Assembly: GCF_900167555.1 (NCBI RefSeq)
Contig: NZ_FUYF01000015.1
Span: forward strand, 1-53,404
Source: Gemmiger formicilis
GTDB lineage: Bacteria; Bacillota; Clostridia; Oscillospirales; Ruminococcaceae
Length of the DNA stretch: 53,404 nt
Direction of reading: 5' to 3'
Positions 4,850 through 29,632 of the stretch are shown in pieces. The stretch's first letter is position 1. Every line of letters starts with the position of its first letter. A program made the position numbers and the translations under genes. The notes below the pieces were generated by a model. It had not been told where the DNA came from and searched no databases. It saw only the letters and a program-made list of their open reading frames with translations.

Positions 4850-4882
4850 GACGAGGTTTCCTTTCTCGGCTAAAGTTTTAAC

Positions 4883-5115
4883 GGCAGTCTCCCGGGAGGT
4901 TGTTCTTTCTTTTGGCAGCAAAAGAAAGAACCAAAGAAAACTGCCGCTGTTTCGACGCAGCGGACCCGCGACTTGGGGGCTGCACGCCCCCAAGACCCCC
5001 AAAGAGGAAGTCGGAAGTCTCGGCGGCTAAACGGACGCAGTATTACTGTCCGTTCTTAACGCCGCCGAGCCTTCCTCCACTTTTGAGTCGGGAGTTCCCC
5101 CGAACCCCCGCTGCC
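4883..5115. repeat. Structured repeat element, copy A (covarying stems)
   Basis: A roughly 230-base element with a second diverged copy at 11459-11687. Visible stems are: 4902-4931 (GTTCTTTCTTTTG, loop GCAG); a short CCGCTG/CAGCGG hairpin near 4945-4964; 4972-4994 (CTTGGGGGC, loop TGCAC); a long 5013-5075 stem (GGAAGTCTCGGCGGC paired to its complement, with an inner AACGGAC/GTCCGTT stem and loop GCAGTATTACT); and a TCGGG/CCCGA hairpin near 5088-5103. Outer GGCAG (4883) and CTGCC (5111) could also pair. Compared with copy B, three stems differ in sequence but stay paired. The strand of any RNA cannot be decided. Confidence 0.8.
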
Positions 5116-5128
5116 GGAAACAGCAGTC

Positions 5129-5218
5129 CGTAGGGAGGGGTCTTGACCCCTCCGCTGCTTTCCGACCAACTACCGTGACCGGGTCATCCGTAGGGGAGGG
5201 ATTCATCCCTCCCGGGGC
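5129..5218. repeat. Two GTAGGG-type palindromes
   Basis: A GTAGGGAGGGGTCTTGAC-type copy lies at about 5129-5157 and a GTAGGGGAGGGATTCATC-type copy at about 5189-5218. They sit between structured element A and the promoter of the next gene. Nothing else is seen before 5300. Confidence 0.85.
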
Positions 5219-11322: not shown

Positions 11323-11458
11323 TGTTCAGAAAGTTGCACATATTTTTAGAGTTGTTGTGTGCATTTTGACCACAATGACGAATAAGGCGGTTTTTAGGGC
11401 GTTTTGGGGTACGGTTTATGGGACAGTGTTCCGGATGGTGGAATCTTTGCCCGGGAAC

Positions 11459-11687
11459 GGCAGCCTCCCGGGAACCCGCTTTCTTTTGACAGCAAAAGAA
11501 AGCTCGCAAAGAAAACTGCCGCTGTTTCGACGCAGCGGACCCGCGACCAAGGGGCTGCACGCCCCTTGGATTCCCAAAGAGGAGGTCGCAGAGGGCGCGG
11601 GCTAAACGAAAGCAGTATTACTTTTCGTTCTTAACGCCCGCGCCCCCTGCTCCGTTTTAAAACTCGGGTGTTCCCCCGAACCCCCGC
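11459..11687. repeat. Structured repeat element, copy B (covarying stems)
   Basis: Second copy of the element at 4883-5115, same orientation. The stems correspond: GCTTTCTTTTG/CAAAAGAAAGC; the identical CCGCTG/CAGCGG hairpin; CCAAGGGGC/GCCCCTTGG at 11547-11569 with the same TGCAC loop; the long stem 11588-11650 (GCAGAGGGCGCGGGC against its complement) with inner AACGAAA/TTTCGTT and the same GCAGTATTACT loop; and TCGGG/CCCGA. The changes relative to copy A are compensatory. Confidence 0.8.
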
Positions 11688-11695
11688 AGGGGAAA

Positions 11696-11852
11696 AGGCC
11701 CCCTTGTCAAAGGGGGCTGTCACCGTTAGGTGACTGGGGGATTCCGACGGGCCTTGTGTCGCCGCTCGTCAACGGTCACCTGCCGTCAACCCCCTGAACC
11801 CCCCCGGCCTGCTTCGCGGCCACCTCCCCTGTGAGGGGAGGCTTTTCTCGCG
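11696..11852. repeat. Palindromic repeat of the CCCCTTGTCAAAGGGG type
   Basis: Starts with GGCCCCCTTGTCAAAGGGG and GTCACC/GGTGAC, and ends with CCTCCCCTGTGAGGGGAGG. The ends resemble the CTTCCCC/ATGAGGG family, but the inside differs. It follows structured element B directly; no gene is seen in 11200-11880. Confidence 0.65.
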
Positions 11853-11881
11853 TCCTTCGCCCACGCAAAAAACATCCTTTT

Positions 11882-12559
11882 TTACAAAATCTCCCGCACC
11901 GTCAGCACATCCCCGTCCACGCTGAACTTTACCTTATTCTCCCCGAAATCCAGCGTGTACACCCGCTCCGGGTCGTGCTGGTAAGCGGGGCGGGGGTCGT
12001 TTTTCAGCACACCGGACAAAGCGGCGCGCTTGTTTTCCGGCACTTTGCACAAAAGCGCGTCGGGACAAACCACCTGCAAAGCGTATTCCTTTGTCGTATC
12101 AGTGAACCCGCCCCGGGCGTCGGGGTAGGCGTCCACATAGGGCAGATACGGCTTGATGTCGAAGATCGGCGTGCCGTCCAAAAGGTCCGCGCCGCGGACG
12201 ATCAGCTCGCCGTTTTCGACGCCCGCCAGCTCCACGCAGGAAAGCCCCAGCGCGTTCGGGCGGTAGGGGCTGCGGGTTGCAAAGACGCCGCGGCGCTCGT
12301 TGCCGCCCAGGCGCGGCGGGCGCACGGTGGGCCTCCAGCTTTTGCCCGCGGCATACTCCGCCGCCACGGTGGAAAACTGCCAGATCAGCCACAGCCGGTC
12401 ATACCCCTCGATGCCGACCAGCGCGTTCGGGTCGCGGTATTCCGGCTCAAACACGATGCGCGCCGTCAGCTCCGGCACCAGCCCGCTCTGCCGCGGGATG
12501 CCGAATTTATCCGTAAAATCCGTGCGGATATGCGCAATCGGATGAATTGTGTACTCCAT
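11882..12559 (-). CDS. trmO: tRNA (N6-threonylcarbamoyladenosine-37) methyltransferase TrmO
   Basis: A 225-residue member of the TrmO/TsaA (UPF0066) family, which uses SAM to methylate t6A37 in threonine tRNA. The family blocks are clear: YTIHPIAHIRTDFTDKFGIP at the N-terminus, then GIEGYDRLWLIWQF. The core RPPRLGGNERRGVFATRSP and YRPNALGLSCVEL is followed by LLDGTPIFDIKPYLPYVDAYP. The last 65 residues match the C-terminal domain of longer members. The start codon is preceded by GGGGGCAGA, an acceptable ribosome-binding site. It is single, divergent from the ABC exporter genes; the shared 130-base gap holds both promoters. Confidence 0.95.
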   Translation of the reverse strand: MEYTIHPIAHIRTDFTDKFGIPRQSGLVPELTARIVFEPEYRDPNALVGIEGYDRLWLIWQFSTVAAEYAAGKSWRPTVRPPRLGGNERRGVFATRSPYRPNALGLSCVELAGVENGELIVRGADLLDGTPIFDIKPYLPYVDAYPDARGGFTDTTKEYALQVVCPDALLCKVPENKRAALSGVLKNDPRPAYQHDPERVYTLDFGENKVKFSVDGDVLTVREIL

Positions 12560-12687: not shown

Positions 12688-13470
12688 TTGGCACCAATCA
12701 TCCGTACAGAGAAGCTGCGCAAGGTCTATGCCGTCGGCAAGGAGCGCGTCGTTGCGCTGAATAATGTCGATCTGTCGATAGAAAAGGGCGAGTTCTGCTG
12801 TATCGTCGGCCAGTCGGGCAGCGGCAAGTCCACGCTGCTGAACCAGCTGGCCGGGCTGGAAAAGCCGACGTCCGGCAAGGTATACATAGGAAAGCACGAG
12901 ATCAGCAAAATGACCGAGAACGAGTTGGCCGAGTTCCGCCAGCAGCACCTGGGGTTCATTTTTCAGAGCTACAACCTGCTGCCCACCATGACGGCGGCGG
13001 AGAATGTCGCCCTGCCGCTGATGTTCAAGGGTGTGGACAAAAAGACCCGTCTGGCCCGCGCCCGCAAAGAGCTGAAATCCATGGGTCTGCTGGGCCGCGC
13101 CAACCACCTGCCCACCGAGATGAGCGGCGGCCAGCAGCAGCGCGTCGGCATTGCCCGCGCGTTCGTCAGCAGTCCCAAGGTCATTTTTGCCGATGAGCCG
13201 ACAGGAAACCTCGACTCCCGCACAAGCAAGCAGGTACTGTACCGTATGCTGGAAATGTCCAAAAACAGCGGTGTCACGTTCGTTATGGTCACTCACGAGC
13301 CGGAGCTGGCCGAGTGCGCGGACCGCATTGTGACGATCCTGGACGGCAAGGTCTGCTCCAACGTCGTGCAGGACGAGGAGACGAAGAAGAAAAACCGCGA
13401 CGCCCTTTTTGCCGATCTGGAAGGGAATCTGGATATTGGCGGGGAGGCAGCGAAGGAACAGAAAAAGTAA
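12688..13470 (+). CDS. MacB/LolD-type ABC transporter ATP-binding protein
   Basis: A 260-residue ATPase that would drive an export-type or mechanotransmission ABC system. Walker A is GQSGSGKST (about residue 40), the Q-loop is [13 protein letters not shown], the signature [13 protein letters not shown], Walker [13 protein letters not shown] and the H-loop VMVTHEPEL. About 35 residues follow the fold. TTG at 12688 was chosen: AGGAGG ends 7 bases upstream, whereas the GTG at 12682 is too close to it. It is the first gene of a cluster with a secreted CARDB-like protein and an FtsX-fold permease. A family-1 repeat of 150 bases separates it from the second gene. Confidence 0.93.
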
Positions 13471-23600: not shown

Positions 23601-23760
23601 TTACTTTCTTGAAAGACCTACTTTCTTGAAAGAAAGTAGGCAAAGAACTTTCAATATTTTATCCCGGGGACGGGATTTGGGATGGACTTTACGCAGCATC
23701 GCACATTTTCACCCGAGCATCTGGAATTTCTTTGGTTCTTTCTTTGCAAAGAAAGAACAC
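23601..23760. repeat. Hairpin-ended repeat element just after dnaA
   Basis: The left end is a perfect hairpin CTACTTTC TTGAAAGAAAGTAG (23618-23639) followed by GCAAAGAA. The right end, read inverted, is GTTCTTTCTTTG/CAAAGAAAGAAC (23735-23758) followed by CAAAGAAA. Both resemble the first hairpin plus CAAAGAAA of elements A and B. A partial extra copy of the left hairpin (TTACTTTCTTGAAAGA) lies at 23601. Confidence 0.6.
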
Positions 23761-23764
23761 CCCG

Positions 23765-29134: not shown

Positions 29135-29632
29135 ATGGACAATGTGTTTCCGAAACGAAAATGGATGCGGCTGCGCAACTATGATTATGCCTCTCAAAAG
29201 GTTTATTTCATAACGCTGTGTACGCAAAATCGTGAAAGAATCTTATCTGAGATTGTAGGGAGGGGTCTTGACCCCTCCGTGCGCGCGGAAGTTACGCTGA
29301 TGCCGTATGGGTCAATTGCTGAACATGATTTGATGGAAATACCAAATCATTTTCCTAATGTGGAAATTTTGAATTATGCCATAATGCCGGATCATCTGCA
29401 TATCTTATTGGCGCTGGGCTGCCGGGAGGTTGTAGCGGAGGGGTCAAGACCCCTCCCTACAGTGTCAACCATTATAGGGCAATATAAAGCTGGTGTGAGC
29501 CGCAAATGTAAGCGTGCAATATGGCAAAAATATTACCACGACCACATCATCCGCAACCAACTCGATTTTGAAGAAACATGGAAATATATCGACAACAACC
29601 CGTTGCAATGGGTGTTGGACGGAAAAGCGTAA
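29135..29632 (+). CDS. REP-associated tyrosine transposase (RAYT), Y1/HUH family
   Basis: A 165-residue IS200-like Y1 transposase of the RAYT group. These act on single-stranded palindromes tagged with GTAG. It begins MDNVFPKRKWMRLRNYDYAS, then KVYFITLCTQNR. The HUH motif is MPDHLHILLAL and the likely catalytic Tyr region is WQKYYHDHIIRNQ, ending with the family's YIDNNPLQWVLDGKA. Two GTAGGG-type palindromes lie inside the frame: 29254-29284 (translated as IVGRGLDPSV) and, inverted, 29432-29462 (VVAEGSRPLPTV). Base composition is much more AT-rich than gyrB and gyrA, which suggests transfer. There is no clear Shine-Dalgarno. It stands alone between the two gyrase genes. Confidence 0.9.
   Translation: MDNVFPKRKWMRLRNYDYASQKVYFITLCTQNRERILSEIVGRGLDPSVRAEVTLMPYGSIAEHDLMEIPNHFPNVEILNYAIMPDHLHILLALGCREVVAEGSRPLPTVSTIIGQYKAGVSRKCKRAIWQKYYHDHIIRNQLDFEETWKYIDNNPLQWVLDGKA
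29254..29284 (+). repeat. GTAGGG palindrome inside the RAYT gene, copy 1
   Basis: GTAGGGAGGGGTCTTGAC and its complement, same sequence class as the intergenic copies, kept in frame. Confidence 0.92.
29432..29462 (-). repeat. GTAGGG palindrome inside the RAYT gene, copy 2
   Basis: Inverted relative to the first copy: GGAGGGGTCAAGACCCC followed by TCCCTAC, in frame. Confidence 0.92.

Follow-up and report, generated by a model that had tools for sequence, protein, structure and literature searches.

What is being kept when two copies of a repeat share their loops and differ in their stems, a folded RNA or a folded DNA? This question is raised by a 53,404-nucleotide stretch of a Gemmiger genome (the window), for which an original prediction had placed two copies of a structured element at 4883-5115 and 11459-11687, with loops in common and with stems that diverge while staying paired. 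The positions were right, the repeat being slightly longer (4880-5120 and 11456-11687, both on the + strand), and the common loops and quoted stems are present in both copies. The outer stems, also said to be paired, are broadly so, each with one mismatch (T.C in copy A, A.C in copy B). Copies A and B align over ~230 bases with divergent stems, and a 32-base core common to both occurs twice against 0.00 expected (100 shuffles). A search of the assembly (3.24 Mb) with copy A returned 15 dispersed copies (contigs C39, C40, C61, C65 and C68), one of them split by an insert. We refer to these as the own copies.

Anatomy of the repeat

The copies and their parts in the window are as follows.

4880..5120, + strand: whole element, copy A
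4902..4944, + strand: module A of copy A, predicted; hairpin arm 4902-4914, loop GCAG 4915-4918, purine arm 4919-4931, purine linker 4932-4940 (mirror of the arm), and CTGC 4941-4944 pairing with the loop as a pseudoknot, with a predicted triplex
4945..4962, + strand: module B, hairpin CGCTG / TTTCGACG loop / CAGCG, varying in the genus set only
4972..4994, + strand: module C, hairpin CTTGGGGGC / TGCAC loop / GCCCCCAAG
5013..5075, + strand: module D, long hairpin; outer arms 5013-5027 and 5061-5075, inner arms 5030-5036 and 5048-5054, loop 5037-5047, one-sided bulge CTTAAC 5055-5060
5088..5103, + strand: module E, short hairpin TCGGG / CCCGA, then ACCCCCG
5130..5155, + strand: GTAG-tagged REP-like hairpin beside copy A, a separate repeat, read from sequence
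5190..5213, + strand: second GTAG-tagged REP-like hairpin beside copy A, read from sequence
11456..11687, + strand: whole element, copy B; module A 11476-11519, modules B and C within 11520-11569, loop of module D 11612-11622

On the + strand, the hairpin of module A has pyrimidines in its 5′ arm and purines in its 3′ arm, with 4-6 bases in the loop between them; it is followed by a linker, also of purines, and then by a short stretch that is complementary to this loop. Module B carries the loop TTTCGACG or a variant of it (exact in 9 of 16 full elements, variants in the remainder), module C is a G/C hairpin, and module D is a long hairpin in two parts with the loop GCAGTATTACT. All 16 full elements agree exactly in that loop, in the TGCAC loop and in the CTTAAC bulge. 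With DNA parameters the whole + strand folds far below shuffled sequences (z -7.39), none of 200 shuffles being as low. At locus L073 of the genome G009 the D hairpin has unrelated stems, yet the CAGTA loop and the CTTAAC bulge are kept; L072 and L074 are near-copies of this locus, and we therefore count the three as one further D-hairpin subfamily.

The element is followed in the window by islands of other hairpin repeats (5121-5215 and 11688-11860) of GTAG-tagged and CCCCTTGTCAAAGGGG types; a GTAG tag family of REPs has been described (PMC3733652). Moreover, some copies are interrupted by a repeat of ~140 bp, which sits at the loop of module E or at module B (L085 near 4868-5003, L088 near 12885-13020, L082 near 5016-5155, and L064), as if hairpin loops were its target.

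Stems change in pairs

The full-element set comprised 16 sequences, namely 14 of the 15 own copies and two from G. formicilis, the interrupted copy (L015/L016) being left out. Over 65 named pairs, 97.1% of 1009 cells are paired and 29 are unpaired. Two-sided changes account for 95 cells in 19 pairs, spread over five of eight helices including the pseudoknot, whereas one-sided changes account for 2 cells. Slid controls reached at most 54.3% paired, with no more than 4 two-sided pairs and 15 two-sided cells. Because 42 of the 65 pairs never vary, these are uninformative, and the same invariance means that module E offers no covariation test. There are weak spots: the first pseudoknot pair fails in 7/16 sequences, helix 5 is 88.4% paired, and mismatched cells occur in the outer stem. 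When weak helices and mismatches are counted, copies A and B alone differ two-sided at 12 pairs and one-sided at 4, and all comparisons among the 14 own copies give 753 two-sided versus 222 one-sided differences. Stem decay without compensation was sought in the further copies (14 own and 2 sister sequences, and 59 from the genus), and the claim that stems differ while pairing is kept held up in all these sets.

Wobble pairs are nearly absent

Modules A, B and C recur as a unit across the genus. We aligned 65 such units (59 distinct) from matches at E<=1e-7 at 47 chosen loci, a subset of the genus matches. The 1391 cells of this set are Watson-Crick in 1365 cases, G.T in 4, A.C in 8 and other in 14, and the 59 distinct sequences show 299 two-sided versus 0 one-sided changes. 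RNase P RNA of the same genus served as control (30 of 34 matches used, one per locus, 29 distinct; structure from RNAalifold), one RNA family and no survey. Here G.U fills 339 of 2608 cells (13%), and 104 one-sided changes stand against 36 two-sided ones. For the control count, pairs with at least 50% letters and at least 70% standard pairing were kept, which in the full element left 58 of 61 nested pairs, the pseudoknot excluded. With no pair dropped and all sequence pairs compared, the ratio of one-sided to two-sided changes is 0.06 for the A-B-C unit, 0.27 for the full element and 2.62 for RNase P.

Since G.T on one strand is A.C on the other, the scarcity of wobble applies to both strands. 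Wobble and one-sided change are thus nearly absent, unlike in RNase P RNA, and we therefore regard the structural evolution of the element as DNA-like and an RNA as disfavoured. Judging from these sequences, the pattern is what selection on DNA pairing, or the copying of one arm onto the other, would leave, and what a functional RNA usually would not. The two-sided changes support the earlier claim that the folded form matters. As to what that form might be, the original prediction had offered a non-coding RNA or an element moving as folded single-stranded DNA; the first is disfavoured by the comparison with RNase P, and the second fits better, with no mobilising enzyme found. It had recognised no known RNA class, in agreement with Rfam, where no family scored above its gathering score for the element. 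More generally, the missing wobble pairs suggest a simple test of whether the structure of another repeat family is kept at the level of DNA or of RNA.

A predicted pseudoknot and a mirror tract, both covarying, in hairpin A

Three things went beyond the original prediction: the pairing of the loop with the block after the linker, the mirror relation within hairpin A, and how large the family is. The loop and the post-linker block occur in 21 distinct combinations, for example GCAG/CTGC, CAA/TTG, GAC/GTC, CGC/GCG, GCGAC/GTCGC and GCGCG/CGCGC, with a complementary run of at least 3 in 20 of them and of 2 in the other. The mean run is 3.24 versus 1.74 when partners are shuffled, and none of 10,000 shuffles was as high. 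The purine linker likewise mirrors the purine arm, with a mirror run that averages 6.12 over 26 types and 4.11 after shuffling (0/10,000 as high). In each of 14 unique pairs, arm and linker agree in the length of the first A-run (3, 4, 5 or 6), and the base after it is G on both sides in 13, counted by hand. The shuffles ignore relatedness and therefore the counts overstate the number of independent events; because related sequences are not independent, we take both statistics as strong indications, short of proof.

Hairpin A is thus predicted to form a pseudoknot together with an intrastrand triplex, both features covarying. The triplex would be of the purine type on the + strand and of the pyrimidine type on the - strand, and, from the geometry, the third strand would end beside the loop, where its neighbour pairs. 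For the related E. coli motif, footprinting in vivo gave no support for a stable triplex, and a duplex formed once the complementary strand was added (PMC4666352). The footprinting result makes a standing structure less likely in the present repeat and still allows a transient one. Pattern searches have found intrastrand triplex motifs in bacteria, one of which was shown to fold in vitro (PMC4666352); the available part of that paper offers no evidence for selection on the third strand itself. In the present family the third strand, the pseudoknot and the stems change in step across species, and selection on the third strand can therefore be tested from sequence.

Distribution in the genus and beyond

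A covariance model of the A-B-C unit, searched against the genome and its relatives, matches at least 28 of 35 genus genomes at E<=0.1, and at least 21 of 35 have a best match at E<=1e-6 (own genome included). Matches at E<=0.1 number at least 58, 54, 46 and 42 in G016, G023, G018 and G007, respectively. In 14 of 20 regions (L126-L145), about 11 of which were chosen for a listed nearby partner, two units face inward as an inverted pair spanning ~360-780 bp, seven regions having been read as sequence; none of the 15 own copies is so arranged. Some of the weak matches may belong to a separate, simpler triplex palindrome. Such a palindrome lies in the window at 23727-23762 on the - strand; its purine tail is a mirror sequence, which makes it a short intrastrand-triplex motif, and it recurs in the own and other genus genomes (L022, L024, L025, L044, L046, L048-L050 and L060), often, by eye, after a stop codon and before a terminator-like hairpin.

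Outside the genus, searches with strict filters, at which weak matches are lost, found 7 genomes with low-scoring matches (30-48 bits) among 146 from other genera of the family, and none among 298 others of the phylum. The idea that the hairpin is common in many phyla was unsupported for this phylum, the exact stem pattern being found in 0 of 397 other genomes. A stretch of 63 bases had no match among plasmids, and viral contigs gave 0 matches to the loop pattern. The phage search matched one unverified, unannotated 12-kb 'bacteriophage' contig from human faeces (L242), whose end is occupied by a copy (12139-12373) with 89.8% identity to copy A; this contig may be a bacterial fragment. Among genome contigs the loop pattern was found in five stretches, three of Gemmiger formicilis MCC627, one of Mangrovibacter and one of Colwellia, and a rough estimate leads us to expect a few matches by chance. 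No description of the element was recognised in the literature, as judged from titles and the openings of abstracts, and the part of PMC12306157 covered by a word search names neither Gemmiger nor Subdoligranulum nor Faecalibacterium.

Insertion sites and the search for a mover

By RNase P sequence (n=30) the genomes closest to our own are G013 and G014, at 99.4%. The sister G014 has no element by BLAST or among the model matches listed. Six of the 15 own copies were traced by their flanks, and the element is absent from all six sites in G014 and from five in G013, with the flanking DNA aligned; these empty sites could be losses. In seven comparisons the left-hand homology stops 3-15 bases short of the element, and on the right the ends run into other repeats; no target-site duplication was resolved in any of the seven, and copy A compared with G014 has no clean breakpoint. 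In sister species, other repeats occupy some of the same sites. By reading, CGGCAG on the left is matched by CTGCCG on the right in 4 of the 15 copies and by a one-base variant in 2 more. With gene edges inferred from open frames and codon-position GC, 9 of the 15 copies start 4-15 nt past a same-strand stop codon, 5 start ahead of a divergent start codon (4 of them at a distance of 25-44 nt and 1 at 127 nt), and 1 has neither.

Some sites are held in common with G. formicilis and carry copies with differing stems (L062 with L006, L064 with L012, L065 with L002). Matched by flanks and occupied in both species, L006 and L062 differ by 15 two-sided and 3 one-sided changes, and the stems in the C-D part of L012 and L064 differ mostly by paired changes. 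Given the differing stems at shared sites, copies may be overwritten within a genome.

The Y1 transposase family (PF01797) has two matches in the own genome, one of them inside the window. There, a 165-codon frame (29135-29632, + strand) matches the transposase and contains GTAG-type hairpins, the frame staying open through them; its flanking genes are presumably gyrB and gyrA. PF01797 has no match in 4 of the 11 genus genomes with at least 10 model matches listed, namely G018, G019, G022 and G031 (at least 46, 11, 12 and 24 matches), all of them drafts in which absence is not proof. We also considered a larger, gene-carrying element between distant copies in G005 and G009, and recognised no transposase by eye among the open frames. 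Neither the PF01797 searches nor the open frames of these two stretches thus yielded a mobilising enzyme, and the repeat family is a lead to a new one.

What the element may be

We consider that the element is probably a non-coding, mobile, mosaic DNA repeat of the genus Gemmiger, with folded single-stranded or cruciform DNA as its working form. Its core unit would be a hairpin locked by the loop-linker pseudoknot and a purine third strand, followed by two hairpins; one such unit is joined to the long hairpin in the own species, and in several relatives two face each other in what resembles a REPIN. Folding would take place while the DNA is single-stranded, on the lagging strand or during repair, whereupon a trans-acting enzyme would recognise the fold and insert copies at gene edges. 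The perfect arms would persist through two processes, selection acting on the folded DNA and the copying of one arm onto the other by template switching. A bolder version is that a DNA pseudoknot with an intrastrand triple helix, selected throughout the genus, is the recognition signal, and that the repeats are moved as folded single-stranded DNA by a novel enzyme; this we offer tentatively, as possible and somewhat doubtful.

Template switching might also have made the paired changes as a mere by-product of replication, copying arm onto arm without selection on the fold. Such copying has been described as the source of paired changes in RNA genes (PMC8794818), and it is expected to give two-sided changes without wobble intermediates. 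However, it leaves unexplained why the tract following the stem is a mirror and not an inverted repeat, and why two subfamilies with different stems have the CAGTA loop and the CTTAAC bulge in common, and on its own we find it unlikely. Were the element instead a structured non-coding RNA or 3′-UTR element, transcribed from the + strand of the copies just past genes, the nine copies right after a stop codon, the strong predicted RNA folds and the invariant loops of modules D and C, as in functional RNAs, would all be in keeping, and the pyrimidine-type triplex, the kind of the - strand, has been reported in RNA (PMC4666352). Against an RNA stand the near absence of G.U and one-sided change on either strand, the lack of an Rfam match, the four copies upstream of divergent genes, where transcription would read the opposite strand, and the report that the purine-type triplex, which the + strand would form, does not form in RNA (PMC4666352); taken together these render it quite unlikely.

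An RNA working in both orientations would exclude wobble on both strands and would agree with copies lying both after genes and upstream of divergent genes. Nevertheless, it requires an RNA and its complement both to be functional, with the mirror tract giving a different kind of triplex on each strand, and seems to us extremely improbable. A REP family mobilised by a RAYT, or a decayed insertion sequence moved by the Y1 transposases of the genome, gains from the two PF01797 matches and from the REPIN-like pairs of relatives; it is made very unlikely by the four draft genomes that carry the element and have no PF01797 match, and by the REP-like hairpins in and near the Y1 gene of the window, which are of the GTAG kind and distinct from the element. 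The mobile DNA repeat therefore remains the reading that we favour.

Comparison with known repeats

MITEs are small, non-autonomous and dispersed. The element is all of these, and differs in that neither a target-site duplication nor a parent transposase was found. With the REP, REPIN and BIME repeats associated with RAYTs (PMC3733652, PMC3116915) it shares interspersed palindromic units between genes and mosaic neighbours, and its inward-facing pairs in relatives may correspond to their inverted pairs. Its unit, in contrast, is ~100 bp long with three hairpins, whereas a REP is one palindrome of 20-40 bp (PMC3733652); the GTAG tag of RAYT REPs is not seen in the aligned unit and is present in the neighbouring hairpins; and RAYT REPs are linked to a Y1 transposase, while the unit is not tied to one. 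CGTC-tagged REPs are likewise palindromic repeats, which mostly occur as inverted dimers and have no transposase of their own (PMC3733652), but have a single stem of 8-9 bp, and the available part of that source mentions no pseudoknot or mirror tract for them.

The BoxC/PIT/TM repeats (PMC4666352) are likewise intergenic and multi-copy in bacteria, and in them a hairpin precedes a block of purines that supplies the third strand; they exist in many copies, fold in vitro, and have no mover reported adjacent in the part of the paper available. Their layout of pyrimidine, loop, purine, loop, purine (PMC4666352) is that of module A, which is a hairpin with an adjacent mirror block. By eye, module A does not fit the G/C-rich TM consensus: the BoxC/PIT/TM motif is G/C-rich, 37 nt long and from proteobacteria (PMC4666352), whereas the tract here is A-rich and variable and covaries with the stem. 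Unlike there, the tract is also coupled to a loop-linker pseudoknot, and makes up a single module within an element of ~230 bp (~360-780 bp as inverted pairs). Our best reading is a hitherto undescribed mosaic repeat, similar to REPINs and BIMEs, that has an intrastrand-triplex motif as its foundation; BoxC/PIT is the nearest known system. Module A resembles BoxC/PIT/TM, the pairs and sites resemble those of REPs, and neither the GTAG tag nor the Y1 association of RAYT REPs was seen; we therefore place the element as a variant of the bacterial interspersed repeats of folded DNA.
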